Shown one piece after another: positions 43,285-62,199 of a DNA stretch of 64,000 nt. The notes under the pieces are model-generated. The model was not told where the DNA came from. It did no database searches and worked only from the letters and a program-made list of their open reading frames with translations. Position 1 is the first letter of the stretch. The number at the start of each line of letters is the position of its first letter. Both the position numbers and the translations under genes were made by a program. Source of the stretch: Paramyrothecium sp. XJ0827 (Eukaryota; Ascomycota; Sordariomycetes; Hypocreales; Stachybotryaceae). The stretch covers positions 3,410,001 through 3,474,000 of the forward strand of contig JAJFPB010000008.1 of assembly GCA_020881915.1 (NCBI GenBank), given 5' to 3'.

Positions 43285-43795
43285 ACGCAAGCGCATATGC
43301 AGTCTCTCTATACCAACCATCACTAGTATCATACAAAACTTCGTCATTCGATCTATCGTTGGCATATCTCGTTTCATCCAAGGCTTTGCTACATCTTCAA
43401 CCTTATTAGTTCAATTTTGAATGTAATCGATGACGATGACCAGTTCTATATCATCAACTCTCTCAATCCTCGTCTTCAAATGATCAATCTCCCCATTCAA
43501 ACCTCATCATCCGAAGCCTCTTTGTAATGCTCAAGCTCGATCAACACTCTGTCGACGATCTTTCGCTTGTTCCACATCCCACCTGTGGCCAGGGAAAGGA
43601 GGAAATGGATGGGGGCTTACAGGCTCGACGTTCTTTTTGGGCAAATTCTTACTTGCCGGTCCGAGAGACGGTCATGGCCTGCTGGGCCACGTCACACGTG
43701 CATGCAGGTGACATGTGTAAGGGACGTCTTCAGCCAACTGGGAAATTTGGTGTGCTTACGCGCAGTCTGCGTGGTGTTGTTTACGGTGGGCGATA
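43285..43795. other. intergenic, flank of the TIR element
   Basis: No gene supported between the GATA gene and the element's left end. Confidence 0.5.
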
Positions 43796-43817
43796 GGGGG
43801 CACTGTTGCAAAACCCC
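43796..43817 (+). repeat. left terminal inverted repeat
   Basis: 22 bp, preceded by TA; pairs with 48960-48981. Confidence 0.82.
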
Positions 43818-44342
43818 ATTTGGGTTTAGGGGCTCGACTCCTTAGTCATCCGAGTACCTTTGGCTGGCCTGGGAAATGTACTGCGGACTAGCAGCGGACT
43901 CGCGCGGTAGCCTTTAGCCAGTCGAAATTCCCAGTCACTATACTTTTTGGCGTCGCCATCACATAGATGCTCACAACACCATGTCCGGGACATGGTTCTG
44001 ACTATTTGAGTCGATCTTTCTAAACAACCTCACTACTCAATCCTTACTTTCTATTCGCCATTGAAACTCCCTATTTTAGAAATGGCGAAAACTTAGCTGC
44101 TCATTCCTCTTCCATTCGCATGAGCAGCAGCTTGGTGAGCCCATTCGGGGTCACCGCAGTAATCCCGCTACTGGTCAGCAGCGGACTAGCGCAGCAACCT
44201 CCTGCTTAAATGAGCCTAGCGACTTCATCCACCATAGGGAAGGGCGATATTGTTGTTCTTGTTATATTAAACACTCAATGGATACAGGACTTCCCCTTTT
44301 TCTCCCTTCCCGACTTTCACCTCCTCTCTTCTAGGTACCGAA

Positions 44343-45704
44343 ATGGGCCCTCCTAAGATCCCCAGAGCATGCCTACTGCATCCAAGCCGGAAAAAGCACT
44401 ACGAACTCTTCACCACCGCGTATGTTGGCGCGAACTATTGCGGCCGTTGCGGCTTGGCCAACCCCTTTCGGCCCCAGCATCAAGCCAGGTCCAAAACTCC
44501 GGCACTTCCGGGTCCGTACGATGAGGTGGTGGAAGTTGAGGACTCTCCTCCACGGGCAGTCAGTCCGGCAAGCCAGCTACTGCGTGACAGGCAGAAGCCG
44601 GTATCCTCTGTTGGCATTGGACGTACGGCTCAACTACTCCCTAACGAAGAGTCTACTCCCGGCGCAGTGAATACACGGGCACGCATACCCCCTCCTGCGT
44701 TGTCAAGCAATCCCCAGTTCATGACCGTCGCATCGGCGGCCAGCCGGGCCATTCAGAATTCAAAGGCTAATACCAGGAAGCCAACAAGACATCGAACGGG
44801 ATACCAGTGGGTACATATTAGCCTCCTGCTTGTGAGCCTGGAGACCAGATATTTCAACGGGCTGGCAGTGGAGGTTCCTGAGACAGTGCTGCCTCTGAAA
44901 GATACTGTGATTAAGTTTTCCTCGGCGGATTTACTGACTTGGCCCTCATTCACTGAGATTTTGTTCGACCATCTCCGTCCGCTTCCGCCTACAATCGATC
45001 TTACAAATAGAGATTTTTGGAGTCTTTCATACGCTTCGAGTTTCTCCGGCAAGAAGATAGTCACTGTTCCCAACACCGATAAGTACATGACACCGTCGAG
45101 TATGCTCGCCTCGGGGCACTTCGGAAACAACCAGGCAGGACAGTTGAAGGTTCTGGTCGTCCTTACATCCACAGATGTAGTTGACAAGCAGGAGCCAGTC
45201 ACACCGCTCCGGCCGGATGAATACTCAACGCCAGTCAAGGAAGAAAAGAAACGGAAGGTCAAGAAAGAAGATACAAGCCCTGCGCCCCATGGGAAGAAGC
45301 GTATCAAACAGGAGGAACATGTCAAGAAAGAGACTAGCACTGGGAACACAGACCAGATCAAGCCGGAGGCACCGGTACACGTCACGATGAAGTCGGAAGA
45401 GCCTGTCCCGACCGCCTCTTGCCAGGACCCGACAGACGACGAGCTTGAAAGTATCGCCGACGAGATCGTTGTACATCAAGATGTGGTAGATCTCTGTGAA
45501 GTAGAGGATCCGCTTCATGATCTAATTTTTGACAGCATCCCTGCTGATAACGGGAGTGGAGACAGGGCAGATGACGGAGACGAAGAATATGGTGAGCAAG
45601 TTATGGTCCCGGAGTTCGTAAGAGACCAGATAATCTCCTTCCCGAGTCAAGCGCTGACACTAACAGGCAACTCTGGGGCCCCTTCCTCAAAGCTTTGGGG
45701 GTAA
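44343..45704 (+). CDS. element cargo protein with clustered SUMO motifs
   Basis: An intronless frame of 453 residues from ATG 44343. Near the N-terminus is CGRC (33-36); about 150-275 may be a small fold (GYQWVHISLLLVSLETRYF ...LTWPSFTEILFDHL). Residues 295-352 hold six psi-K-x-E sumoylation consensus sites at Lys299, 307, 322, 328, 340 and 350. VVDLCEVED at 381-389 looks like a SUMO-interacting motif, and VVEVED at 62-67 is a second candidate. The C-terminus is acidic. No enzymatic domain is recognised. It lies inside the TIR element, convergent with the integrase, so it is cargo. A role in SUMO-dependent chromatin or nuclear-body interaction is inference. Confidence 0.7.
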   Translation: MGPPKIPRACLLHPSRKKHYELFTTAYVGANYCGRCGLANPFRPQHQARSKTPALPGPYDEVVEVEDSPPRAVSPASQLLRDRQKPVSSVGIGRTAQLLPNEESTPGAVNTRARIPPPALSSNPQFMTVASAASRAIQNSKANTRKPTRHRTGYQWVHISLLLVSLETRYFNGLAVEVPETVLPLKDTVIKFSSADLLTWPSFTEILFDHLRPLPPTIDLTNRDFWSLSYASSFSGKKIVTVPNTDKYMTPSSMLASGHFGNNQAGQLKVLVVLTSTDVVDKQEPVTPLRPDEYSTPVKEEKKRKVKKEDTSPAPHGKKRIKQEEHVKKETSTGNTDQIKPEAPVHVTMKSEEPVPTASCQDPTDDELESIADEIVVHQDVVDLCEVEDPLHDLIFDSIPADNGSGDRADDGDEEYGEQVMVPEFVRDQIISFPSQALTLTGNSGAPSSKLWG

Positions 45705-45825
45705 CCAGGCTCGACTGTCCGACACCGATATTTCTGAGGCGCTTCCGCCAGCACACTCCACACGGTTTAAAGGAACAAAGATTCCCGCAACATTTGTTGT
45801 CCGACATAAGAATAGGAAGGATTGA

Positions 45826-47550
45826 CTACTCGGGCTCCTCATTCGAACTCTCGCTTTCCTCCCCGTCATCACTTATCCCTTCCACGTCGCTCCCTTCCTC
45901 GTCCTCATATCCTAGTTCAGCAAGAGGTTGCTCTGCTGGTTCCCCATCTCCAAGTTCATTGTGGGAGGCTCGATTTGTTCGCTCATGTAGCGCTTGCTAT
46001 TTGTGTTTAGCTAGGTTAAAATTGCAAAGAAATGACGACGCTTACATATTCAGACGCCCCCGGTAGGCGCTCTGCGATACGCCAACACAGGCTGCTGGCC
46101 ACTTTCAATGTGTTGAATGATCCTATCTCGAAGTTCAAGGTAGAAGCGCTTAAAAGGCCGCAACGTGTCCGGCTCTTGTCGAGTCCCAAGGGCTACGTTG
46201 CCATAGCCCATTTCACTGAGAGCTCGGTGACACCAATCCTTTGTCTCCGGCTCCAAACACGTAGTAATATCAATATCGGCTAATGGCCGCTTCATCTGCC
46301 CCAGAACTGCGCGGTCAATGGGGATACCCCAGTTGCATGCCTTATCTGGATCGGGGTAGTGGTAATTCATCCAGGGCTGACCGTGGACTACATGGGGACG
46401 GTTCTTCTGAAGGCGAATTCGATGGAGGTTCCACGCCTCCACAAAGTCGAAGAGCTCTTGGCGTAATATATCTTCGAAGACGGCGTAGATCGCAATCTGA
46501 TCCTCCAACATGTCGCCGTCGAAGTCCCCGTCCCGGGCGAGTTCCCCAAAGTAGTCTACCCACTGCCGGGAGGAGACGTGAAGCATGCTCTCCCACCATT
46601 TCTCAATCTTGACATTCTTTGTGCTCGGTGCCGCCTTGTAGGAATCCTTTAGGCGCTTCCCTTGCTGGAAGACCTGCCCATTCCACTCCACACGCCCATC
46701 TGCCGCCAAGGCAAAGTTCCAATGGGCTGCTGCGATTAGTGGTGTTTCGCTGCCTCTATCTGCCTGCAAATACCATGGCCGGAAGCCATAGGCATCACAC
46801 GCTGTCAAGTACTGCTTCAGGACGCTCAAAGCAGTTGTAGCAGAGTGGCCGATATAGAACCAGATGATGTTGCGTGAGTAAGCGTCGATTGCAGCGTATA
46901 TCTCGAATCCGTACGCCTTGAGCTTGTCATGACCGTCAATGCACCACTGGTAGTTTGGTCCCGGTACAAGGAACTGTCCCTTCTTCCGCCGAAACATCCT
47001 TTTCCGGATATCGACCTCATTCGGGAACATGATTTTGTACATCGCAAAAAGGGTCTCTTGGTACCCAGAGCTGCTTTTGCTGGCGAAGGTAAGGCTGGAG
47101 AAGGCTTTTGCCATATCCGGAAATGGCGTTGGATCGTCGTGTCATTTCGATGATAACTTTCTCTGTCTTTTCCAGCAATGCGAGACGTTCTTCATCGCTA
47201 TTGATCCTGCGTACCCAGCGGCGGTCTGGGTGAAGCCTGATGCGCTTCAGGCCTCGTTTGGTGATCGGCCAGCCCTGTCTCTGTAGAACACTCAACGTCT
47301 GCTTCTCGCTAAGCCCAACGCGGAATATCAGATCGCGGGTGGCCTCTATCAGCTCAGGACTCTCTTTGGTGCGAGCTTGCTGGCGCGGCAGATCCCAGTT
47401 CGCGATTCGGCGGGAGAGAGTGCTGAGATTGACGGCGACATCATGATGCTTGCGAAGCTTATATTGAATCCTGCGTCGCGAGACACCACTGAGGTAGAGA
47501 TGAGTGATATAGTCTCGGTGTTGATCGATTGAGTGGAGAGGACGTGCCAT
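45826..47550 (-). pseudogene. rve-type integrase/transposase, frameshifted
   Basis: The first frame (from 47550) carries a helix-turn-helix start (THLYLSGVSRRRIQYKLRKH, then LSTLSRRIANW) and runs to GKSLLQPYLRQQKQLWVPRD. The second frame (to 46050) continues with LFAMYKIMFPNEVDIRKRM, VPGPNYQWCIDGHDKLKAYG, AIDAYSRNIIWFYIG, ADRGSET and IEKWWESM, giving a DDE triad of the fungal integrase-core family. The family-like text switches frame at 47046-47056 (a CCCTTTTT-type run), needing one extra base, and no intron fits. A possible last exon, 46003 to 45826, encodes an acidic tail (YEDEEGSDVEGISDDGEE), but its GTCTGA donor is weak. This copy is probably inactive, or the run hides a sequencing error. 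Confidence 0.75.
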
Positions 47551-47834
47551 CTCTTATTTATTTATTTTGTTTTGTTTTAAAGCAGGTGAAGTTGCAAAAT
47601 GGGGTGGGCGAATCTCTTGGTCCTGATAGCATGAAAAGGGGCGATGCAGTCTGGGATACCGCACTGGTCCGCAGCGGTATTGCAACTGGCCCGCGGCGGT
47701 GATTAGCCAGGAGGAGCTTAGTGTCGGGTTGCTCATTGGTTGGGGCGCGACCAAACCAGGGGTAGGACCGATATTTACAGAACCTAGATCCCTTCTAACC
47801 ACGGTTTCACCTTCCTTTTTATACCATCGCGCCC

Positions 47835-48742
47835 GTGGAAAAGCTCACGGTCAACAACGGCGTCACGCCCACGGTCGATCCCGAAATGATTAGCGAGACT
47901 CTTGGCGCGGATGGGGGCTCTCGCAGCAGGAACGCTGCGGTGAAGAGGAGCAGAAGATTGTTTCAACCCAGCGTCCCCAAGCCCACGGCAAAGATTACCG
48001 TACAACCAGCAAGTCCTCATGCGAAGTGATGGATGCTAACTTAACCATCCGAGCAGAAGAAGAAGCAGACGAAGAAGACCCCTCCCCGCGGCTCAGTACG
48101 TCACTTCCCATGCCGGCAGTGCGTCACCCGCGCCACCAAGGCTCCCGGCCATGAATGTGCCTCTCAAGACAGTATGTTTAGTTGACTGAGGCCATACATC
48201 TCGTACGCTAATATCCACGTCGTAGATACGGGTGCTGCATGCTGGGACTGCGCAAAGAATGGCCACACATGTAGGCCGGTGAGGCATCTCTGCGCTGTGT
48301 CAAGTAGCGAGCCACTAACCAAGTTGCGTCTCTAGGTCCCCGCTGCAGCTCTTGCTGCTGTGCGTACCTTTGGGACCTGAACCGGCAGGTCAATGTCGCA
48401 GATGGCGATCCGGATGATGCCTGGCATGCCGCTGCACAGCGCGCGGCACAACAATTACGAGCTTGCGGTAGTGCTGCGGCCCCTCCGGAACCCCAGTACC
48501 AGCTCCCGCTTTGGCTTCCTTTGGCGAGGTATCTGAGAAGAGTCTCGAGGAGAGAAAGGTTGTGGCTTTAGAGGCTATCGCCGGAGCTGCGCGGCTCTGG
48601 GTTGTGAGTGTGATCAAATCATTGGATGCAAGTCAACAGCTGACTCAATGTTCAGCAATGCTATCATGCGAAGAAGAAGGCGGTCGAAGAGGAGGAAGAA
48701 GAAGAAGATAATGACGAAGATGAAGAAAATGAATATAATTGA
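47835..48742 (+). CDS. element cargo: Cys-rich protein with acidic tail
   Basis: Coding-like blocks separated by short introns. The first is 47835 to about 47999 (basic, SRSRNAAVKRSRRLF). The second, from about 48058 (KKKQTKKTPPRG), leads to FPCRQCVTRATKAPGHEC; the third is TGAACWDCAKNGHTCRP (about 48228-48283), then VPAAALAAV. Later blocks include SFGEVSEKSLEERKVVALEAI and a final run of Glu/Asp ending ENEYN at 48742. The cysteines (CxxC, C, CxxC, C) suggest a zinc-binding module. No ATG fits the first block well (GTG at 47835, ATG at 47887), and one later junction does not close in frame. Exact exons are uncertain. It is the third gene inside the TIR element. Confidence 0.45.
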
Positions 48743-48959
48743 GCAGTGGCTCCTAATCCTATGGCAGCATGACGCCTGGTGTCGCTTTGAATAGAATTGA
48801 AAGGGGCTCAGCTGGTCCGCTGCGGTCCCGTTGCTGCGATTGCACCGTCCGTGATGCCCACAAAATCAGGAAATTTATGCTGATAGTACATAGATCAATG
48901 TACTGCGGGGCAGGGCGAATATGTCATTAACCCAATTTGGCAATTTTGTAGTTATTTTG

Positions 48960-48981
48960 GGGGTTTTGCAACAGTGACCCC
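48960..48981 (-). repeat. right terminal inverted repeat
   Basis: Inverted copy of 43796-43817 with one mismatch; followed by TA. Confidence 0.82.
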
Positions 48982-48983
48982 TA

Positions 48984-49454
48984 TAGCCTGCCATAGTTGT
49001 TGCAAAGTTAGTCATCAGAAAATCTTAGCGTTATGACCAGGGGACCAGGGTCGTAGAAGCTTACGCGCATGCTATCTAATCAGGTAGTAAACTGTAATTG
49101 AACTGCATCTCTTTCCTTTCAAGTCGAGTGAATCGAAAAAAGATAAGAAAAAGAGTTTTCGGGTAGGCCACTGACTTATAAATAAGGTTACCTTTTTGTG
49201 CCCTCGTCCTCGATCTGTCACTCTTGGAGGCCTCTAAGAGGTCCCAGAAATTGGCCCAACATTGTAGTCATCACGCACAGCCATCTATTGGACCAGATCT
49301 GGGTCTGAGACGCTATTATCCCTTAAAATGATAATGAGGTGACGCGCGTGGACGCGATCACTATGCATAGAACCTGCCAATGCAAAATACAACCATTTTC
49401 TTTAGTCTTGGTACTGTATCAAATTTTGATTTGCACTGGTACAGAGCCGTAGAT
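48984..49454. other. intergenic, upstream of GH16
   Basis: About 470 bp; nothing recognised apart from the region that should hold the GH16 promoter. Confidence 0.5.
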
Positions 49455-50395
49455 ATGCTACTCTGGTACCTCCTCGTAGCCCTGATTACAACTGCAGCTC
49501 TTGCTTGGGAGGCGCCGCAGTACTGTGGGTTTAATCGGATCTGGTATGAGGACTTCCTGGGCGATGAAGGGGTTCTCCCAAATACCTCCAACTGGAATGT
49601 AATTGATGCCGACATTGGTGTGAATAATGAGCTGCAAATTTATAAGAAAGACTCGCGGAACGTTCAGTTAAGCGGCGGGGAGACTCTGCAGCTAGTGCCG
49701 TGGAAAGACCGTAGCGCGCCTAGAGGTTGGACCTCCGGTCGCGTCGAAAGTACTTAGTACGATAGTATTAACTGCTTGGATAGTATGGAAAGAGCTAACA
49801 ATAATTACTATTTAGCACTCTAACTCCCCAGCCCGGAAAACTAACACGGGTTCAGTCGAGAATCCGCTTCGGTGATAATGCGCGAGCAAACAAGCAAGGC
49901 CTTTGGCCCGCATTTTGGATGCTAGGCGCGTCTATTAGAAAAGGCACACCCTGGCCATTCTGTGGCGAGATCGACATCATGGAGAACATCAATGGTCAAG
50001 CAATTGGCCATGGAACGCTGCACTTTGAGAGAAAACCAGGTATCACGGCCAAGACGGAACTGCCCGATCAGGGTTGGCACACGTGGCGAGTTGAGATCGA
50101 TCGCAGACCTCGCAGCATCGCTCAAGAGAGTATTGCTTGGTTTCTTGATGGTGTCGAATTTCATCAAATACAAGGAAGCTCGGTTGGCGATGAAGATATT
50201 TGGACCCGCGTTGCACATTCACCACTGTTCCTCATCCTCAACATGGCGGTAGGTGGAAAATGGGTAAGGAAACGAATCATGTAAATGTTAAAATTCGCTG
50301 ACATAGTGTGATAGCCAGGCAACCCAAATCATGAGACGAAAGACGGTTATGGATCTATGGTTGAATATGGATATGTTGCTCACTATTCGACATAA
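49455..50395 (+). CDS. GH16 family endo-beta-glucanase-like, secreted
   Basis: Exons 49455-49756, 49816-50263 and 50315-50395 encode 276 residues with consistent phases. A signal peptide opens the protein (LLWYLLVALITTAALA), then WYEDFLG. The catalytic motif GEIDIMEN places nucleophile Glu152, Asp154 and acid/base Glu157; WPAFWMLG, HGTLHFER and LNMAVGGKWPGNP surround it. The C-terminal strand GYGSMVEYGYVAHYST is typical of fungal laminarinase-type GH16. These enzymes cleave beta-1,3(4)-glucans outside the cell or in the wall. A broken copy of exon 2 lies at 8.7 kb. Start chosen for the signal peptide; an upstream in-frame ATG at 49380 lacks one. Confidence 0.88.
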
Positions 50396-52130
50396 TTAGC
50401 TTCAGGGTAGTTCTGCCACTCCAACCTGTTTGATTGATTGATTGATGTATTTTCCGTCCAGCGGCCTTCAGGCCGCTCAGGTCCCCTATAGGGGCACAGG
50501 ACGTGTTGAGCTAAAGTATCTAGAGACCCGGCCTCGGAAGGCATCGCCCAGCGCTTCTTGCAAGACCTCGCTTTCTGGATGGGCTGTCGAGCCCAACTCT
50601 AGGGAGGCGGCCGCCAGGCACGCAGTACAAGTGTCTATAGCCACCCTTCCAACTGCCTTGCCTTCTACTCCTTCATCCAACATTTCGTAGGCTCTAAGGC
50701 GCTCCTTGTCGAAACCTCCATTCCGTCAGCGGAATATGAGGCAGATCTGGTCAACCCTTGGTTTTATCCAGTCAGAATTCTCTCGCTCGCCCGCCAAAGC
50801 TGCTGCCGCAGTCCATGCTCCAGTAACCAAGCGATGGAAATGGCGGGAGAGCGGCGGTAGGGAAAAACCCTCGGAAGGAATCAGAGGCTGTCTGGCAGCT
50901 TACCTTCAGGGAGAAAAACCTCCGCGACCAGCCACCGTTATTTAGAAAGGCAGGCTTTCTAATACCCGTAGCTCCTTGGTTCCGAAGGAAGCTGCGAGGT
51001 CCGCGTGGACAAATTGTCGGAGCCAGCTTTTTGCAGAGGAAGATGAACTCTCCTAAGGTCTTCCTCTGTGCTGTTAGGGCCCCAATAGAGGATAGCAGCA
51101 AAAAGCGTGGCAGAGTGGCCTGAAAAATGGCCCCCCTACTAACAAGCCACTAACAGCTGTGAGGGGTGCAAATTTTTACAGGGGAGAGTTGGCCACTCCA
51201 ACCTGCTCCACGAATGGAGGGGTCTAGGGTAGCGTGAGGTTTGCATAACGGCCGCATGCAAAGACGCGAGCTGTTGTGCAAATATAAAAGTGAGGGAATC
51301 AAATGGATGAATGAGCTATCAGCCCCATGACCAGTCAAGTCGTAAGCAAATCCTCGAGAGGCCTCCAACTGGCTACTTTTGCAGAAGTTTGCGAGGTTCC
51401 AAAAATGGGAACACGGCAGAAAATTCGCTATTAACGAGTGTGAGATATGGTGGAATGGGGGACCAGAACTGGAATACTAACAGAGGAGAATAATTCGTTT
51501 TTTATCCGGCAGGAAAAACTACGTTGAGTAAGCGCCAAGTTCCGAAACTTTAAGCTACTTCTGTTCTATCTACATACGGAGAAAGTCAAGGAAGAAATAG
51601 ATAGTTAGCCCGTACTTTATTGTCGAGGTAATCTGTAGTAATGACCAGAAGGCAGTACCTCTTACCAACTTTAATCCCGTACAGTAACCGTCCCAAAACG
51701 GTTAAAATGCGCAACCGGTGGTTCGGATGCCAAGGTGTTGCTGCCTTGAAAGGTATAGTTTGACGAGCCTAATGACGTAAGTTGTCAACAAGACTAGTGA
51801 CTGGATTGAGACTCTTAACCTTTTATCTACTACGAAGGTCAGCAACTGTCTAACCAGAAGCAGGGACATTTGCGCCGAGTCGTCAACCCCATTTCATGTG
51901 GGCGCAGCAACTGCGCGCTCACCTTAGCAGGAGTGGCCAAAGTTGGAATAGACGCCCGCTCCATTTCGAGCTATGCCAGATCTAGCTAACTGCAAGGGTT
52001 ACCGAGATGTTCGCGCTTCACAATGTGAAGAGAGTCCGCGACCAACAAGCTACTAGAAGTTGAGTGCGACTTATTGACGCTAACAAGCATTCTCGCCTGC
52101 TTCAAGGCGGACCCCAGCATCCAAGCATTG
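50396..52130. other. 1.7-kb region without supported genes
   Basis: A TTGATTGATTGATTGATG run (50432) is followed by two adjacent short palindromes, GCGGCCTTCAGGCCGC (50461) and CCCCTATAGGGG (50483), which may be element ends. A minus-strand frame (50486-50683) looks faintly protein-like but is too short to call. Confidence 0.45.
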
Positions 52131-52265
52131 ATGACAATGCAACAGGACGAGGCAGCTCCACCTGCGGTTAGGGTACCGAAGCTCCGATCACAAAGATGCG
52201 AGCGATGCCGCTGGCGAAAGGTCAAGGAACGCCGGTGGGCAAGGGAAGAATGGCGGCGTGGGTAA
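52131..52265 (+). pseudogene. Zn(II)2Cys6 half-cluster fragment
   Basis: From ATG 52131 the frame reads VPKLRSQRCERCRWRKVK, closely matching the first half of the zinc cluster at 20.05 kb (PKLRSLKCQRCRRRKIK). In that gene an intron follows at this exact point. Here no second half (CDxxxPxCxxC) was found downstream, so the cluster cannot form. Probably a decayed paralogue. Confidence 0.5.
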
Positions 52266-52570
52266 CTCCGTGTTCCCGATTTTGGGGTCCTTCAAGTTGA
52301 CCAGTCCTAGAAATTGGACCATCGCCATGGACGTTTGCTAGGGACCACGATTACTAAAGCTTCTTCTTAACCCTTTACCATGAATGTGACTACTTTTAGG
52401 TCTTCTATAGGAGTGCATGCCCATGTCGAATGCCCTGCCATACTTCGACCATTCACCCCTTCTACGAGGCTTTATGATGGCGCCTACTGAGAGAAACATT
52501 GAAAATAATAGCGCGGTAAGACAAATGCCAGCAGTCTTCTTGATTGGTTCTGTAATTAATCGATCTATAG

Positions 52571-52822
52571 ACTTACTCCGAACCCGAACTTATCACCGCA
52601 AGAAGCGCTGATCTTGTGGAAGACAATAAGAGACTCCGAAGGGAGCTGGCAAAGTGGCAGAATCAAGCTAGACAGGAGTCAGTTCGTCGGAGTCTTGCCG
52701 ATAAGGAGATTCTCAACATGATTGCTCATCAGCAAGAATGTGAGGTCGAGTTGTGTCGTCTTACGGCTATTGCTGGTTACCTGACTGGCTCTACAAGGCA
52801 GACCAAAGACTCAGGGGCATAA
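52571..52822 (+). CDS. short coiled-coil exon, unknown
   Basis: An exon-like block after TATAG at 52570 reads SEPELITARSADLVEDNKRLRRELAKWQ and continues as a coiled coil to a stop at 52820-52822. It may be the last exon of the gene whose zinc-cluster fragment lies 300 bp upstream. The stop codon sits in the loop of a perfect hairpin. Confidence 0.35.
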   Translation, partial: TYSEPELITARSADLVEDNKRLRRELAKWQNQARQESVRRSLADKEILNMIAHQQECEVELCRLTAIAGYLTGSTRQTKDSGA

Positions 52823-52849
52823 CCTGTCCCTGAGTCTTTGGTCTGCCTT
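52795..52849. repeat. perfect inverted repeat, 22-bp arms, 11-nt loop
   Basis: Arms 52795-52816 (AAGGCAGACCAAAGACTCAG then GG) and 52828-52849 are exactly complementary; the loop GCATA... contains the TAA stop of the upstream frame. It could form a stable RNA hairpin at the end of that transcript or be a recombination scar. Confidence 0.95.
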
Positions 52850-54150
52850 ATCACTTTTGGACAGATGCTACCACGGAGAGGAGGTCTATGGAAGGGAGAA
52901 GTCGATAAACCCGAAGTTCGTATTATTTCTTAGAGCTCTTGTTTACTTCTATGAAACCGAGGATAGCTGGGAATCCTCTGACGAAGGTCGAGAAATACCC
53001 ATGGAAAAAGAACAAGGAGAGCCGGATATCATTTGAAGGTGTACTTGGGAGATACGATTATCTTTAACGCTATTTCTAAAACGAAACTGCTGAGTATGGT
53101 CTGACTCTCTAGATTGAGGTGAAACGCAGGATTCTGGATGAACTCATCAGAATTTTTGGCAGCCTGTCTTAATGGATGGAGAACAGCACAGAACTCTCCG
53201 ATACACTTATTTGCAAGATAAAGAGACCAGAAACGACCGAAAAAGATGTCAGATTGCTCTCAGAAGAGATGAAAGGACTGTGGCAGATTCGCGGTTTTGT
53301 TGTCGTAGGAGATAGTTTAGGATTTTGAAAGTTGCAGAAAAGTGGTTCATATAAGTCAGGAGGGGACAGGCGCAGCATTTGTGGAAAAGGGGTGAACGGT
53401 GTAGACTGACAGTTTAGGTACACGCCCTCAGCTCTTGAACCAGAGCGGCGAAGTCCTTGCTTTAGCAACATCCCTGTTTTTCCGAAGTGATCACGGATGC
53501 CGCCACTCGGTCCCTCCATGAGACAAGGGTGGGAGGGTTGGAACATGATTAAGCGAAAACCCACGTCCAAGCCATCCCTGATCTCGAGTCTAAATGACAA
53601 CGAGGCGCTGACGCTCCATCCCGCCGTCAGCTTGGAGGTGGCCGCATTTTGCTAGCTGATTATCACATGTTACAGCATAATCCTGCCTCGGCGTCTCGCT
53701 GAACTGACATGATTCAGGATAGTGAGCCGTCGTGACTTTCATCCAAGCCACACGCCACATACGCGCTCTAACCCCTTCCTGGAAGGTGAGGCTATCTCAG
53801 GATCAGGTTTCTGCTATACTATTATTAGGTCACTCGACCGTCTATTAGGTCATGGGCGAGAGTGATTTAGCGAAACGCCGAACCAGAGTAGTAAATAGAT
53901 TAGAGTAAGGGCCACGTACTCAGAGGGGATAGATAAAAAGACTAAGGTGCTGAAACGTTGGTTTTGGCGGCACTGCCCCGAACAATGCGCTATAGAATTA
54001 TCGTGCCTTTTTGGAGGTTGTACGGAAGCTTAAAGTCGATAGCCAGGCAGGTAATCATAAAAATAGATTATATAAATGTTACTCGACACAGTTGTTAATA
54101 CTAACAGAGTTTTCTGCCTCGCAGACGGCAGTCCATTGATATCCCCCTTG
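52850..54150. other. intergenic with a dispersed repeat
   Basis: No gene supported. The repeat copy at 53675-53795 is described separately. The long minus-strand frame at 53169-53600 is not protein-like. Confidence 0.5.
53675..53795 (+). repeat. about 120-bp dispersed repeat, copy 1
   Basis: Shares CGGCGTCTCGCTGAA, a GATxxxGAGCCGTC block and AAGCCACACGCCAC...ACGCGCTCTAACCCCTTC with 55045-55165; the right part also matches 41889-41935. Confidence 0.75.
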
Positions 54151-54847
54151 TCACATCCCTAACTGTTTTAGAATATCTTCAATATCTTCGTGCTGTTCAA
54201 GTTCACATCTGACCATCACATATTCCTGCACATGCCCATCTACAACCGGTGGCATGGGGACTTTCGGCATAACGATGATGTCGGCGCTAAAGTCGTGGTG
54301 TTTTGCCTGTAGATGAATAAATGTAGGATCTTTTTCAGTGGCGGAACGGGTCCCTTGGGTTACGACCACACGCTGGCCACCGATGTCCACAGTCAGCACT
54401 AAGTCGCCTTGAACTAAGTGTGACTTCACAATTTTCACCAGTCCAGACAGACAGAAGGTTGGTTCGAGTTTGCTAGCAAATGATATTGGCGATTCTAGGG
54501 GTCGGATGTTACCAACAGTAGCAGATGGTAGATCTTCTTGCAGCGTCGGGACTCCGGCTACTGGATATCTGTTACTGGCGCTTGAATGGCGGCGCATCGT
54601 CGGCCGTGGTACTGACGGGGTATCTGAACCATCTCGAGGCGGGGTCGACCCTACTAAAAAGTATTAGAAAGGAAAGCATCAACACGCCTATACTTACCTG
54701 TACCAAGTCTAGTAAGTCGTTGACATCGTCTGGCTCGTCGCCTTGTTCTTCGCTTTTTGCGGCATGCAGTTGAGCGTGAGTTTTGCTGACCACACTGAGA
54801 TGTAATCTGCTGACTTTAGTTTCGACCGGCGACGTAGGGAACAACAT
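54151..54847 (-). CDS. unknown protein
   Basis: The clear part is a minus-strand frame from 54597 to 54151, 148 residues (MRRHSSASNRYPVAGVPT... QRVVVTQGTRSATEKDPTFIHLQ ...EDIEDILKQLGM). In-frame codons extend upstream to about 54650. A possible first exon (54847-54698, MLFPTSPVETKVSRL ...DDVNDLLDLVQ) has a good donor (GTAAGT) and a CTAATAC branch point with TTTTTAG. Joining them leaves a one-base phase mismatch, so the 5' end is unresolved. No domain is recognised. Confidence 0.45.
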
Positions 54848-54849
54848 AC

Positions 54850-56517
54850 CGCTCTTGTTGGAATGGACTTTCGATTAGTGTTCATTATTCTGGAAGAGCG
54901 GGCGAACAATGGAAATAGACAAGAAAGTATGAGGCAGAGGCAGTGAGAATGGATGTAGTCGGCCTATAAGACGAGGAGTCGGATGGACAGGGCGTGAGTA
55001 AGTGGCTGCCCCGTTACCCCTGAGTCTGTGCATGATGATGAATCCGACGGCATGTCATCCTGCTTCGGCGTCTCGCTGAAATGACGTGAGCCAGGATGAT
55101 GAGCCGTCTTCTTTCTCCCAAGCCACACGCCACGTACGCGCTCTAACCCCTTCTTGTGCACCATGGATCATGAGCACCATGCCGGATAGGAGGTAGTCTT
55201 AGTGGTTCAGGCATTAAGGTCAGACGATCCGCTTGTTGGTTGATCCTCCATGTGCAATTCTGCCTGATGAAGTCCTACGCACCGGAATTACCGAAGCGGA
55301 AATGTTAGATTGATACCTTTCTGTGGATCACATGCCCTGGACTAACGATCGTCGTCGCGCATCGAAACTAATCGACTCGTATTCGTCATCATGGACAGAC
55401 CTGAAGTGTCCAAAAGAAATAGGAGACGCCCCCGAGGCTGTGCCATTACATCCAGGCATGTCATCCTGCTTCCGCCACGCTGCACCTTGGCCCCTGGATA
55501 ACACCGTTACATCAAGATATGCCACACTAACCCGAACCCCGTACTGAGTCGGCCTCATCTTATGAGTCAGACAACAGCTCACTCCACTTGGACAATACGA
55601 ACTCCCACGCCAGCAACACAACCGGAGTAGCCGTCGGGCCTCCGATAGAGCCTGATGCTTACACAAGGGAAGCTGGAGTTAACTGGCGCCATCAACTAAT
55701 GGAGTTTCAGAACCAGCCACAGGCGGGAAAGCAACTGGCAAAAATACAGTCGAAGAGCCCAAGGACGCTGAACTACCCACAATGGGGCCGACATAAACCA
55801 AGAGCAAAGCGTCGATAGGGGGGTGGGGGTCGGAAGCACCAGCAGAGAACGACTCGAATATGCTCCTCCGCAGGAGAGAAACTTTCGATTAAGAGGATGG
55901 CACGACTGGATAGGAACGGACTTGACTGTCACGGAAGCAGGTTTGGCTTAGGGAGGAGTTCAAACCTGGAACGACTCAGGAAGACGAAGTCAGTTTGATG
56001 CTGCCGCCCTCTGATTTCTGGCTCCGCTTCGTAGGCATATAGATTGTGCTTTCGTCTAGTGACGTGTAACGAAGTCAGCGGTATGTCGCCTTACTGTAGT
56101 CTTCGTTGCATCGGGACTGATTACACTCGGACATGTCACCCTAGTTTGGACTAGGTCGGCCTGTTTCCATGACCAGGTCGATATGGCCGTCGGACAGGCC
56201 GCCTAAGATCCAATAGATGATGATCCTGTGATTGTGTTGGACCTATAGGGGATGGCTTTACATGGGTTCTCAGGCGAGTTGGCATGAATGATAACAAGGG
56301 GTGGGGGGTGGGATTGGGGATTGGGGGTTGCATAGCGGGTGGAGCAGACGATCCTTTTCATTCAGGATTTTTGCGGGTTCAGGGCTTTGGCTAATGGGCA
56401 GGCTGCAACGTTTCTATTCAGGTTTGGGTCAGTCTTGATGTCGGTTCCTACAAAAGACCATGGCTAGCCCTCCTGTACCAGATGCTCAACTTCTCCTGAT
56501 TCACCTTTCTCGATGTA
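54850..56517. other. 1.7-kb intergenic region upstream of the H3-tail-like gene
   Basis: No gene is supported; a 76-codon frame at 55588-55818 is weak and not called. A repeat copy lies at 55045-55165. Confidence 0.5.
55045..55165 (+). repeat. about 120-bp dispersed repeat, copy 2
   Basis: See 53675-53795; both copies are on the same strand and 1.37 kb apart. Confidence 0.75.
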
Positions 56518-57184
56518 ATGGCGCGAACCAAACAGACACCTTGGGCATCAAGAGGCGGCGTGAAAAGTCCTAAGCGAAACAACATGCTATCAACTGGAGG
56601 TAAAGCCGCCCCGCGAGACCTCAAAGTAAGTCGAACCCGTTGATCAGTTTCCTCCTCTAATGTGTAAATACCGCATATAGGTTATGGTTGCCGAATCCTC
56701 ATTCAGGGATTTACTCGAAAGCCTTGAACTAAAAAAACTGCGAGCTCTCAGTGATATCCTCAAAGATCCAGGCAAACCATCAAAGTCTGTCCAGGAAGAA
56801 CTCGCTGTTGCACTGAAGGGAATCGACGAGGAACGATATGATGTGAATATCTCCTTCATCTCCGTGCCTGAGATTCGCAACATATATAGACAAGTCACCA
56901 CTGAGAAGGAAACGCAAATCGATCCAGGAACGCGCTCTGCACCAGCCAAGGTATCGGAACAGCAAATCACAGACGAAAGTCGTATTCCAAGAACGAATAG
57001 TGTCTGTCGGTATAATACCCGAGGCCGGAAGCGAAAATACGAAATGGCAAAGCCGGGTCAGAAGGGCGAAGATGGAGGTAACACAGAGGATGATGACAGT
57101 GACGAAGACTTGAAGTTCAAGTTTGGCAAGAGGAGACAAAATGGTTATCTAGACCCACTAGCTCATCATATCACCACTGAGTAG
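56518..57184 (+). CDS. protein with histone H3 tail-like N-terminus
   Basis: Exons 56518-56625 and 56681-57184 (55-nt intron GTAAGT...ATATAG) give 203 residues. Exon 1 encodes exactly the tail-like part. After Met, residues 2-7 are ARTKQT, identical to H3 1-6. Residues 12-20, RGGVKSPKR, resemble H3 32-40 (GGVKKPHR). Residues 25-33, STGGKAAPR, match H3 10-17 with one extra Ala. Exon 2 lacks a histone fold; it is helical (FRDLLESLELKKLRALSDIL), with a basic RGRKRK patch and an acidic EDDDSDED stretch. A nuclear protein able to engage readers or modifiers of the H3 tail, especially at H3K4, is inferred. The start is fixed by ATG and the tail match. The chromodomain-like gene follows 303 bp downstream. 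Confidence 0.8.
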
Positions 57185-57487
57185 GAGAGGAGCCAGTAAT
57201 TGATCCGTACTTATGAGGCCATCGTTATCAATGCACCCCCGGGTTGTACGAAGACACGAAGTTGATGCGTGCGAGACGCGTGCCCGCCTTACGCCGTCTG
57301 TGGAACTCATATTTGGTAACAGGGACCTGATGTAGGCCACCCTTCTCAGAGGTGAGGAGCTCAGGTATAATCCTTGTTAGCTCAGTCTCTTCAGGGTGAG
57401 GCTCTGGAAGCTTCAGCCACAGCTCGTAAAAGCTCAGCCTGCCCCGCTTAAACTTCAGGTCTGAAAGCGGAAGTGGACTTTGGTGAG

Positions 57488-58743
57488 ATGGTTTTTTACC
57501 GCGTACTCTATGGCAAGATCACAGCTTCAAGGGCGCCAATCACACATGGGCGGCGCCAACTCAATTTCGTTACTACTGATGGAGTGGTTGACCTCACTGA
57601 GGATGGTATGGTTCCACTTCCAACACAGTGCAGCAGCCAGCAATATAATAATAGCGCAGCCGGTAATTGTCGAGGTATGAGCGTATACCATCTCATCCTA
57701 TGTGCATACTAAATTTGCATAGGGAATCAATTGGCTACATTTGGATTTGAGATGGGATCTAATGCCTCAATTTCCTCTCATGATGAGAACCTCTCATCGC
57801 GACAGAGTGAGGGACTAAGCACAAACACTGGTACAACTGAACCCTCAGGCTTGAGTAATGATCAGGGACCAACTGAGAATTCCAAGCCCGTCAATCCACC
57901 ATCTCCTCTCGAAGAAAACCACACAAGCCCTTCAAAAAATGCTTCATCCAGCCATTCAACACAACATGTATTTCCATCTCGACGGGATACTGCCATGCAG
58001 GAAAGTGGGAGACAGAAAACCCTTGATCAATTATTCGGCGAGTCTCACAAATCGGAAGCGGGTCCGAATGCCTTTCAAATTCAGAGAGATGAACCGACCG
58101 ACGAGGTTTCAACAGCTCTTACAACGACAACTAGCCAAGAAACTGGCAATGATGCTTCTCCTGAACTTCTACCTTCAGCTTCAAAAGGAATGATGAAGCG
58201 AGTCCGCCGAGGACGGGCAACTGTAGATAAGGACCCAAATGATATCAGTAAGCAAAGCGTTCCCCTACGACTCTACTCTGCTGATTCTTTACAGACCAAT
58301 CCAGCAAGACAGAGAATGTTGATGGGGCTCTGGCTCATAGACCGAGAAGGCCAGCAAGGGATACCGCTGACGGTGAAGTGATGGCAAGCGCAGATCATGA
58401 CTCTGGCAGATCTATCAGCTTGTCAACTACTGCAACCTTTGCCTCGTCTGAGCAAACGCAAGCAACCGCTGTTGTCACTGATATGGAGATGGAGTGGGAA
58501 ATCGACGGCGATCTAATGGGCAGAGAAGTCATTGATGGCGTGGTGCACTACGTGGTTCCTTGGAAACCCTCTCTTGTGCCGGAGCACCTGATAAATGCCC
58601 CTAAACTGATTCGCAAGTTTGAGCGTAAGTTCGGGGCACGAACGAATAAGTCAGTGGGGGCAGCTAGGATTGCAAAGACAGCGGCTAAGCGCCCGAAGTC
58701 AAGGACAGTTAGTAGCAACATAGGGGTGCGGTGTCAGGGTTAG
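57488..58743 (+). CDS. chromodomain-like protein
   Basis: Exons 57488-57674, 57723-58247 and 58295-58743 give 386 residues with consistent phases. Residues 304-350 (EWEIDGDLMGREVIDGVVHY, then VVPWKPSLVPEHL...LIRKFERKF) follow the chromodomain plan: strand with aromatic, GRxxxxGxxxYxVxWK, and a final helix. Trp305 and the Trp in VPWK could form two sides of a methyl-lysine cage; the third aromatic is not obvious. Residues 33-40, VVDLTEDG, look like a SUMO-interacting motif. The middle is low complexity, with basic MKRVRRGRAT; the C-terminus is basic. Nuclear, chromatin-associated role inferred. An upstream exon cannot be excluded because the first ATG follows an open frame. Confidence 0.65.
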
Positions 58744-59922
58744 CCTCGCCAGCAAGAGTTTGAGCCATTAGGCAACTAGCTATGTAAATATGCGAATTAG
58801 GAAGGGCCGTCATTATTCAATTCTCAACACAGAGCTGCCAGAGTCGCAGCGACTATAAGAGGACGTCCGTCTTGAAGTATGAGCAGTTCGGCAGGGCTAG
58901 CATTCCATTCCCGTGCTGTGGTATGGATGCTTAGTGATGAATCGCGTCTTCGGCCCTATGACACACGTTCTGTCCATCGACTGGACGGTTTCCGCCTTGG
59001 GCGAGAATGGAGATTCCTCAACCCACTACTGGACATCCCGCAAGTGCATGATTCTGACTCTTGCCGTTCCCTCGGCCACTGCACCCCTTCGTCATGAGGT
59101 AACCGAGCACCTTCCACCGCCTCTGATGCCGGCGAGGATGGTAAGCATGCGATACATGGAGTCAGCCTAGGCATACTGATGGATCCAATTATAGCTATAG
59201 CGGGGAGTATTAGCTACCGGGGAACTGCTGCTAGGCACAGCTTCGCCGCAAATCCTGACCCTCACTGCCTCATCTGTTTCCATAGGAAGCCAGCGAGTTG
59301 TATATCCTGATAGGTTCCATCTGCAGGATGGACAATGTGACCATCATGGAGGTCATGCTGGGGTGACAGTAGTCGCCCTGCTAGACCCAGCCATCATCCT
59401 TTATGACACTGTCATCCTCCGCGGCCGAACTACGCCCTGTTGGTACCGTTGCCGTCCGTCAAGGAACCGACACGCAATCCTACTCGGTTTGCGAGGAACT
59501 GCTGACACCCTGAACAGCTGACCCGCGCACCCCACGCCCCTTTCCCCAATTACACAACTGGGCAAGGTACCGCCAAACCAGGGGTCGCCGCGGAGCACGA
59601 GCAAGCCCATTTAATCGGTCGCTCGGGTTTTGCCTTGAAGAACGGATCCCTGGCATCCAAGGTGCCTTTTGAATCCACCCAGGTTCGACTTCCAGGCAGC
59701 GAGCGTCCCTGCTAACTCATTTCTCTAGGGCTGTGCCTTTGTCTTGAATTTCCATACCGATACTGTCAGTCATCCCTCCCTGCCCCTGATTCCCCCCCCT
59801 ACGTTCTCCCTCGTCTGATAGCGTCATATTTCCCCGTAACCCTTATTTAGAGGAGCGAAGGTCGTGACTCGAATCCATTCATCCTCTGCACCAACCTCCT
59901 GACTGCAAATCTTTCTGTCAAC
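58744..59922. other. intergenic, upstream of DNA ligase gene
   Basis: About 1.2 kb without a supported gene. A pyrimidine-rich tract (59771-59815) lies 110-150 bp before the ligase ATG, a common feature of fungal promoters. Confidence 0.5.
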
Positions 59923-62199
59923 ATGCCTTTTCCATTCAGCCTGCTTTGCAACCTCCTCGAGGGACTTGAAAGCAATGCTCTGAGTTCTTCGAGCATCGAC
60001 CGGATCCAGGAACGCGACGCGCATGCTATTATTGCCTGGTTCAACAAACACAATGCGATTATTCCACGGCGAGGTCCAGAAGCTGTTGCATTCTTGTCAT
60101 GTCTCTTTCCCGAACGCAGACCAGACCGGGCCTTTGGTCTGCAAGAAAGACGGCTTAAGGGAATTATACAACGCGCACAGGGTATTGGATCATCTAGAAT
60201 GAAGGACCTGCAGATATGGAAAACCAGTGGCGGTTTAGACTTTGCGTCCTGTGTTGAGCGCGTGATGGTCACAACGGACGGCGAACCTAGGGCTGGTCCG
60301 GAGCTGACTCTGGAAGAGCTCGATGACGTCCTCGATCAGATTGCAGCCTCATCATCGTTCTCGTCAGCTAGTGTACGACAAAGTGTCAAAGAGAAGTATG
60401 GCCGATCAGCTCATGCGAATTACTTGCTTTCACGAGTATTCCAAGTCCTGCATAGCTCCGAGGCCAAGTGGATGATTCGAATGATATTAAAGAGTTACAG
60501 TCCAGCTTGCATCCCAGAAAGGCCGACAATGAGTAAATTCCATTTCCTCTTGCCCGACCTCCTTCGTTTCCAAAATACTATCCCAGCTGCTGTGAGGCTC
60601 CTGGACAGACCTACCATCCGGCATATGCCCATCCAGCCAGCGGCGGATGTTCGCTATGAACTGAGGAAAACCGCCAACAGAGAGCTTGAACCAAAAGTTG
60701 GCATAATGACTGCACGACCGAGCTATGCTAAGGCAAGAAGCATCAGACATTGCTGCCAATTGGCTGGTTCAAGACGGATGAGTGTGGAGCAGAAGTATGA
60801 TGGAGAATACTGCCAAGTCCATATCGATGTCAGCAAATCTGGAGCCCGCATCAAGATATTCTCCAAGAGTGGAAGGGACTCGACCAGCGACCGCAGAGGG
60901 ATTCATTGCACACTGCGGGACAGCCTCGAACTCGACACTGTAGGCTGCAAGATCAAGAAGCAGTGCATATTGGAGGGCGAGCTGCTGGTATGGAACGATG
61001 ACGATGGGAGAATCGAGCCTTTCCACAAAATTCGCAAATATGTGAATCGATCTGGGCGATTTCTTGGAACTGCTCGAGATTCACCCGTCGACTTGAATGA
61101 GCATCTCATGATCATGTTCTACGATATCCTGTTATTGGATGACACTGCCTGCGTCAGAGAGAGCCACGATGAGCGGCGGCGAGTACTTCAATCTCTGGTT
61201 CACTGCATTCCGGGACGGGCCGGCATCGGATCCCGTGAAGTACTTGAATTCTCCTCTTTTGATGCAGCCAAACAGCTCAGTGAAGCTTTCGCTCGAGCTA
61301 TTACGGAACGGTGGGAAGGATTGGTGCTGAAGGGCTGTGACAATCCTTACCTCTCATCCGAGGAGGACAGGTCCTTTATCAAACTTAAGAAAGATTACAT
61401 TCCAGGCCTTGGTGACACTGCCGACTTCGTCATTGTTGGGGGACACCGGGACGCAGGAGATGCGCAAGAGCTTCGAATTGGTAAGCTATGGTGGACATCA
61501 TTTTACATTGGATGCATGGAAAATAAGGATGAGGTCTGCCGCTATAATGGAAAGCCGAGATTTCGCATTATCGATGTCATCGACAAGCACGGCATCTCGA
61601 AAGAGGACCTCATATACCTCAACCGCCATGGATACTTCAGACGAGTGCCTTTTGCCGAGGTTGTACCCGAGTTTGACGTCGCATTCGACCCGGGACGGAG
61701 ACTGCAGCCAGTTGATCTCTTCAGAGAGCCGTTTACGGTAGAAGTGGTCGGTGCTGGCTTCGCAAAGCCTGCGAACGCTCGGTATTATACTCCGCGGTTT
61801 CCACGAGTGTTGAAGGTCCATAGCGATCGATCGTTCAGGGATACCATCAGCTTTAAAGAGTTGCAGGAGATGGCTAAAAGATGCCTCGATATACCGGATG
61901 ATCAGGAACAAGAAGAGCGAAGCTGGTTTAGAAGATTGCAAGGCTATGAGCAGGAGGTTGAAAGGTCGAGGACAAGCTCTCCCAGCGACGGCTCGGTTTC
62001 TGTCCCAGATGTTTATGGGGGCAGGCAAAGCACCCGACAACAGGAAAATGTGGAAACGGCGATTGGGACCCTGTGCGCAGAAAATATTTCCCCGCCTTCA
62101 TCAAAGCGGAAGATGGCTTTGGAGTTCTTGCATGACGACTCAACTTTTAAGCGAGCCAAACGAGACGGGAATACGACGATTCGAAATAGCAGTCTCTAG
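59923..62199 (+). CDS. fungal ATP-dependent DNA ligase-like protein
   Basis: Intronless, 758 residues from ATG 59923 (caacATG). Nucleotidyltransferase motifs are in order: motif I KYDGEY with the adenylated Lys291, motif III EGELLVWN at 351-358 and FYDILLLDD near 399. Motif IV is WEGLVLKG at 464-471 and motif V KLKKDYIPG at 487-495. An N-terminal ligase domain (residues 1-230) precedes them, and an OB-fold-like part with RFPRVLKVHSDR follows. There is no BRCT repeat, which separates it from classic ligase IV, and no replication-ligase targeting start. The family seals nicks using ATP. This fungal subtype has, to my knowledge, no defined role. Confidence 0.85.
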   Translation: MPFPFSLLCNLLEGLESNALSSSSIDRIQERDAHAIIAWFNKHNAIIPRRGPEAVAFLSCLFPERRPDRAFGLQERRLKGIIQRAQGIGSSRMKDLQIWKTSGGLDFASCVERVMVTTDGEPRAGPELTLEELDDVLDQIAASSSFSSASVRQSVKEKYGRSAHANYLLSRVFQVLHSSEAKWMIRMILKSYSPACIPERPTMSKFHFLLPDLLRFQNTIPAAVRLLDRPTIRHMPIQPAADVRYELRKTANRELEPKVGIMTARPSYAKARSIRHCCQLAGSRRMSVEQKYDGEYCQVHIDVSKSGARIKIFSKSGRDSTSDRRGIHCTLRDSLELDTVGCKIKKQCILEGELLVWNDDDGRIEPFHKIRKYVNRSGRFLGTARDSPVDLNEHLMIMFYDILLLDDTACVRESHDERRRVLQSLVHCIPGRAGIGSREVLEFSSFDAAKQLSEAFARAITERWEGLVLKGCDNPYLSSEEDRSFIKLKKDYIPGLGDTADFVIVGGHRDAGDAQELRIGKLWWTSFYIGCMENKDEVCRYNGKPRFRIIDVIDKHGISKEDLIYLNRHGYFRRVPFAEVVPEFDVAFDPGRRLQPVDLFREPFTVEVVGAGFAKPANARYYTPRFPRVLKVHSDRSFRDTISFKELQEMAKRCLDIPDDQEQEERSWFRRLQGYEQEVERSRTSSPSDGSVSVPDVYGGRQSTRQQENVETAIGTLCAENISPPSSKRKMALEFLHDDSTFKRAKRDGNTTIRNSSL

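Follow-up and report, generated by a model that had tools for sequence, protein, structure and literature searches.

A small gene family with an exact histone H3-like start, possibly encoding an H3-tail mimic, near a contig end of Paramyrothecium sp. XJ0827

A small gene family whose predicted products begin, directly after the initiator methionine, with the exact residues 1-6 of histone H3 is real and probably spliced in Paramyrothecium sp. XJ0827, to judge from the genome sequence (51.8 Mb, 15 contigs). The member described here is located within the window, which is the whole stretch of 64,000 bp that was analyzed (C14:3410001-3474000), and is separated from the end of contig C14 by about 48 kb. 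Tentatively, and at somewhat less than even confidence, this gene family, located in repeat-rich DNA that is near-terminal or belongs to a small contig, is read as encoding a mimic of the H3 tail.

The gene is located on the forward strand and consists, as in the preliminary description, of two exons separated by an intron of 55 nt, with a product of 203 residues in total; the sister copies follow the same frame. Exon 1 (MARTKQTPWASRGGVKSPKRNNMLSTGGKAAPRDLK, 56518..56625), which is tail-like with respect to H3 and was found in three of the four genomic copies, has the 36 codons described and ends in phase 0. It opens with MARTKQT (56518..56538), so that the exact match to H3 residues 1-6 after Met was confirmed. 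The GT-AG intron (GTAAGT...ATAG, 56626..56680) measures 55 nt here and 54 nt in both other copies that carry exon 1. Splicing is likely to be real because the spliced frame is the same with either intron length. Exon 2 (56681..57184, stop included) comprises 167 codons plus the stop, and its codon-usage score is the top of six frames. In exon 1 the annotated frame has a slightly better codon score than the other two forward frames. The open frame alone proves little, since 14% of shuffled versions of the 4 kb around it contain one as long as exon 2. Upstream, an ATG at 56460 begins an out-of-frame ORF closing at 56573, and an ATG-TAA start-stop mini-ORF on the same strand (56513..56518) shares its last base with the A of the main ATG. 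Either of these could affect the choice of start.

Searched as a DNA pattern on both strands of the genome, MARTKQT was expected 0.05 times and found five times, namely in three family copies, in the H3 gene (C12) and in one gene on C8 (C8:685917). The shorter MARTKQ pattern was expected 0.83 times and found six times. The sixth match, MARTKQS on C11, is the start of an ORF of only 7 codons and was rejected as a family member. By chance, ARTKQT would be expected about 4e-4 times over an assumed 15,000 protein starts, with residue frequencies taken from seven ORFs of the window.

After ARTKQT the family copies read PWAS or PRAS where the H3 tail has ARKS. Segments resembling H3 32-40 and H3 10-17 had also been proposed for exon 1. 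The first was recovered as GGVKSPKR, with six of eight residues matching H3 33-40; the second, STGGKAAPR, fits only if one extra Ala is allowed. At the K9 position the first H3-like segment has Ala, and the second STGG is preceded by Leu or Gln. When the same residues after MARTKQT were shuffled and compared with H3 1-44 plus Met, the middle segment gave p values of 0.0017, 0.0086 and 0.032 in the three copies, and the last 16 residues of exon 1 gave 0.0010-0.0013. Taken together, all residues after MARTKQT gave 0.023, 0.023 and 0.014. The tested segments (p about 0.001-0.03) had been chosen post hoc. In phmmer searches the resemblance of exon 1 to H3 beyond the start falls short of significance, and a composite exon 1 query matched the genome's own H3 with an E value of 0.46 (55% over 33 residues). 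A PDB search with exon 1 listed 53 sequences, 51 of them H3-type histones (E 1.8-9.2). The two ribosomal eL29 sequences that rank above these (E 0.6) were read as low-complexity basic similarity. An H3-like peptide beyond chance expectation is thus present in a non-histone protein, with the post hoc segments and the phmmer result as qualifications.

The preliminary description placed the H3 segments in a shuffled order. The succession of GGVKSPKR and then STGGKAAPR fits that order but does not require it, for a collinear alignment fits too. In Smith-Waterman alignments, the window and C4 copies are collinear with the start of H3 over residues 1-32, and the best local alignment of the copy near C14:3297 kb follows the H3 tail, interrupted by a single long gap; the scores against H3 are 59 (window), 65 (C4) and 60 (C14:3297k). 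At the position of H3 R8, Arg is found in the C4 and C14:3297k copies and Trp in the window copy. The exon boundary does fall directly after the tail, in phase 0, but the exon shuffling suggested from it is unsupported, because both the place and phase of the intron and five of the six ARTKQT codons differ from H3. In the genome's H3 gene the first intron follows codon 24 and has phase 1 (Ala1 counted as 1; by eye). The five codon differences are silent, which argues against a fresh accidental fragment of H3.

No histone fold follows the tail, as originally described: the 203-residue protein gave no domain match in Pfam, and none of the 13 listed PF00125 (Histone) matches, out of at least 13 in the genome, lies at this locus. 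For exon 2, AlphaFold run without an alignment predicts four helices within residues about 6-80 (mean pLDDT 59.4, with ten-residue means of 56-79 in the helical part), and the C-terminal remainder is a basic and acidic tail predicted to be unstructured. Searches of exon 2 in Pfam, NCBIfam and PDB sequences gave nothing usable, the weak matches to GAIN_A (0.095) and TraB (0.073) being far below the cut-offs, and 0 of 120 pattern matches in IMG/VR were confirmed. Foldseek with the exon 2 model yielded no PDB or BFVD fold match at E <= 0.001. Its ranks 2 and 3 were a PIAS-1 domain, which we take to be a SAP domain, and a rice SAP (E 1.0 and 1.2, from a model of pLDDT 59). This is a hint only and Pfam gave no SAP match, so exon 2 was not assigned to the SAP domain. 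A match of exon 2 on C7 (E 0.005) was set aside as chance; it falls in a frame resembling the largest subunit of RNA polymerase II, with heptad repeats by eye.

Protein and DNA searches of the genome found the family in four places, to be read as at least four. Besides the window copy, these are C4:691.6-692.2 kb (minus strand, 93% DNA identity to the window), C14:3296.5-3297.1 kb (minus strand, 92%) and C14:3329.7-3330.2 kb (plus strand, 90%). Exon 1 reads MARTKQTPRASRGGVESPKRDNMQSTGGKAAPRDLK in the C4 copy and MARTKQTPRASRGGVKRDNMQSTGGKAAPRDLK, shorter by 9 nt, in the C14:3297k copy; the C14:3329k copy is without exon 1. The MARTKQT start and STGGKAAPRDLK are kept in all three copies that have exon 1, which is not independent conservation because the copies share recent descent. 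Exon 2 has 151 codons in the C4 and C14:3329k copies versus 167 in the window. It is open through the first 140 codons in three of the four copies, and in the C14:3297k copy its frame is broken by a 4-nt insertion. The whole gene is held in a duplicated block (49059..57324) that recurs in pieces, mostly inverted, at C14:3296321-3302788. Another part of the window, 43782-48999 (5.2 kb), is about 99.5% identical to C4:667701-672925, probably through recent transposition, and contains a transposase/integrase-like ORF identified by eye.

Nei-Gojobori counts, from which exon 2 of the frameshifted copy was left out, did not indicate that the protein as a whole has been under purifying selection since duplication: in the three copy pairs compared, dN/dS was 1.4-1.6 and in no pair different from 1. 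The ratio was 1.6 for window/C4 (exon 1 plus 140 exon 2 codons; 25 changes, Fisher p 0.47), 1.4 for window/C14:3329k (exon 2 only; 34 changes, p 0.53) and 1.4 for C4/C14:3329k (exon 2 only; 23 changes, p 0.62). Changed codons of exon 1 amount to 0/19 in MARTKQT plus STGGKAAPRDLK versus 5/17 elsewhere (one-sided Fisher p 0.016, with blocks chosen post hoc and counts made by hand).

The gene on C8 that shares the MARTKQT start (685917-686857) opens with MARTKQTAKRYGKP. When its exons are joined by eye, the frame continues into a domain that is ABM-like (PF03992, E 3.9e-4, 2 bits under the cut-off). A paralogue at C8:4203868-4204826 begins with MARTRKTARTILQEQ (44% identity over 71 residues). The DNA pattern MART[K/R][K/Q]TA has three matches in the genome, the two ABM-like genes and H3. 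Together with the MARTKQT-start family, the ABM-like genes therefore put predicted H3-like starts in two families, between which no similarity was noticed. The second of these starts may reflect mimicry or chance. Contig C4, of 1.02 Mb, also holds two very similar divergent H3 variants (C4:24170-24549 and C4:489751-490133). These have 75-77% identity to H3 over the matched core. Their fold is preceded by a proline-rich region, and an upstream frame begins with MALTKRHPRLISGSGRKPG.

Beginning 303 nt past the stop of the gene with the H3-like start, an adjacent gene of about 389 codons occupies 57488..58743 of the forward strand (exons 57488-57674, 57723-58247 and 58295-58743; modeled by eye, open when joined). 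We call its product chromodomain-like on the strength of its C-terminal part (TDMEMEWEIDGDLMGREVIDGVVHYVVPWKPSLVPEHLINAPKLIRKFERKF); it scores below the Chromo cut-off and is not counted as a member. Pfam gives no Chromo match for this protein, and 8 of the 10 PDB sequences listed for the C-terminus bear the names of chromobox or CDY proteins (CBX5, CBX1, CBX3, CDY1; best E 0.075). Two paralogues (C14:3181 kb and C12:171 kb) have two chromodomain-like units apiece and reach 16.4 and 11.7 bits for Pfam Chromo versus a cut-off of 25.1. For the C12 paralogue, HP1 or chromobox proteins make up all six PDB matches (E 0.03-1). Residues W7, Y25, W29 and E36 are invariant in the five units of the three loci. 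The structure prediction for the chromodomain-like end was unusable (pLDDT 39). The protein at 57488-58743 also contains VVDLTED, which resembles a SUMO-interacting motif, and QKTLDQLF, which resembles a PCNA-binding box.

The chromodomain-like gene stands directly beside one of the four family copies, and a paralogue (C14:3318656) lies about 11 kb from another; with adjacency in one copy of four, an association with the family is not established. At the other three copies an IBR-like gene is located downstream on the opposite strand, tail to tail (Pfam, run on one of the three, gave IBR 24.0 bits versus a cut-off of 24.3). The window copy is without such a gene, and a functional pair with it was likewise not established. 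Further along the window, near the chromosome end, 59851-62199 holds an ATP-dependent DNA ligase-like gene (PF01068, PF04675).

Because of its exact H3-like start, the product could be mistaken for H3 by chromatin machinery. The H3K4 epitope is handled by PHD fingers, by COMPASS/Set1 and by enzymes of the LSD1/JARID type. In the proposed mechanism, the initiator Met would be cleaved before Ala to leave a free Ala-Arg-Thr-Lys-Gln-Thr N terminus, which would present an H3K4-like lysine to H3K4 readers, writers and erasers. In this reading the protein is probably nuclear. Its helical segment and its basic and acidic tail may anchor it to chromatin or to partners, and the anchored mimic would then recruit or titrate H3K4 factors. 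As the K9-equivalent lysine is absent, the mimic would not serve as a substrate of H3K9 heterochromatin.

With canonical H3 (C12:2731798) the family shares identical residues 1-6 and the GGVKxPxR and STGGKA segments. It differs from it in being without a histone fold, in its K9 equivalents (A; L or Q), and in the intron position, intron phase and codons of the gene. Influenza NS1 mimics H3 1-4 with a C-terminal ARSK, and G9a mimics the K9 site with an internal ARKT. These, too, are short H3-like peptides in non-histone proteins; they imitate H3 at the C terminus or internally, whereas the family has a true H3 N terminus at the start and no K9. For an accessory chromosome that was transferred in Metarhizium robertsii, a conference abstract reports histone-modifying enzymes along with two putative histones (PMC10687773). 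Chromatin-like genes on small DNA are the likeness, C4 being a small contig that carries two H3 variants and one family copy, whereas the family protein here is a non-histone. Among the literature matches listed for ARTKQT or MARTKQT starts, histone mimicry and fungi, no such fungal protein appears in the portions of the texts available.

The points counted for a mimic are the rarity of ARTKQT, the H3-like segments, the retention of the tail, the codon differences, the consistent frame across introns, the lack of an exon 2 ATG in the other copies, the codon-usage score and the chromodomain-like neighbour. Counted against it are the dN/dS of about 1.4-1.6, one frameshifted copy and one without exon 1, the unremarkable length of the exon 2 frame and the non-significance in phmmer. 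A doubtful but quite conceivable alternative, rated below the mimic, is that a decaying or young duplicated gene drifts neutrally in repeat-rich DNA and that its H3-like start is chance or functionless. The same dN/dS values favour it, as do two broken copies out of four, the weak formal similarity to H3 beyond ARTKQT, the long open frames that are common enough in shuffled DNA, and the 7-codon ORF on C11, which shows that MARTKQ arises by chance. ARTKQT at a start together with two H3-like segments within 36 codons is, however, hard to obtain by chance, and exon 2 has remained open over its first 140 codons in three of the four copies.

It is unlikely that exon 1 is what remains of part of an H3 gene that was captured, perhaps after recombination between its two STGG repeats, and joined to the front of another gene, where it would persist as an N-terminal extension free of selection. 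The first 20 residues are collinear with H3 1-18, and skipping from H3's first GG to its second would yield GGVKxPxR, but the second STGGKAAPR requires another event. An intron unlike that of H3 in position and phase, and ARTKQT codons that differ silently at five of six places while the residues are identical, also speak against capture. We regard as least probable of all an artefact of the gene model, by which translation would begin elsewhere and ARTKQT would not be N-terminal. The ATG at 56460, the mini-ORF touching the start and the in-frame ATG of exon 2 in the window copy (56684) would be compatible with it. That last ATG is, however, missing from the other three copies, which suggests that translation naturally begins in exon 1; the frame is preserved with either intron length, and the exon 1 frame is, by its small margin, the best scoring of the three forward ones.

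A wider version of the mimic reading would have the DNA of the repeat-rich end and of the small contig carry a chromatin kit, comprising a mimic with K4 kept and K9 removed, the chromodomain-like protein and the divergent H3 variants of C4, in which the mimic acts as a decoy or recruiter that prevents silencing; we consider this decidedly unlikely. Most known histone mimics belong to viruses, with a few among chromatin enzymes. In the family described here, repeat-rich DNA of the cell itself would encode a protein that presents a true H3 N terminus but lacks the K9 site. If the mimic reading is true, this would be a simple way for repeat-rich DNA to engage the H3K4 machinery, and users of H3K4me antibodies in such fungi would have reason for caution.
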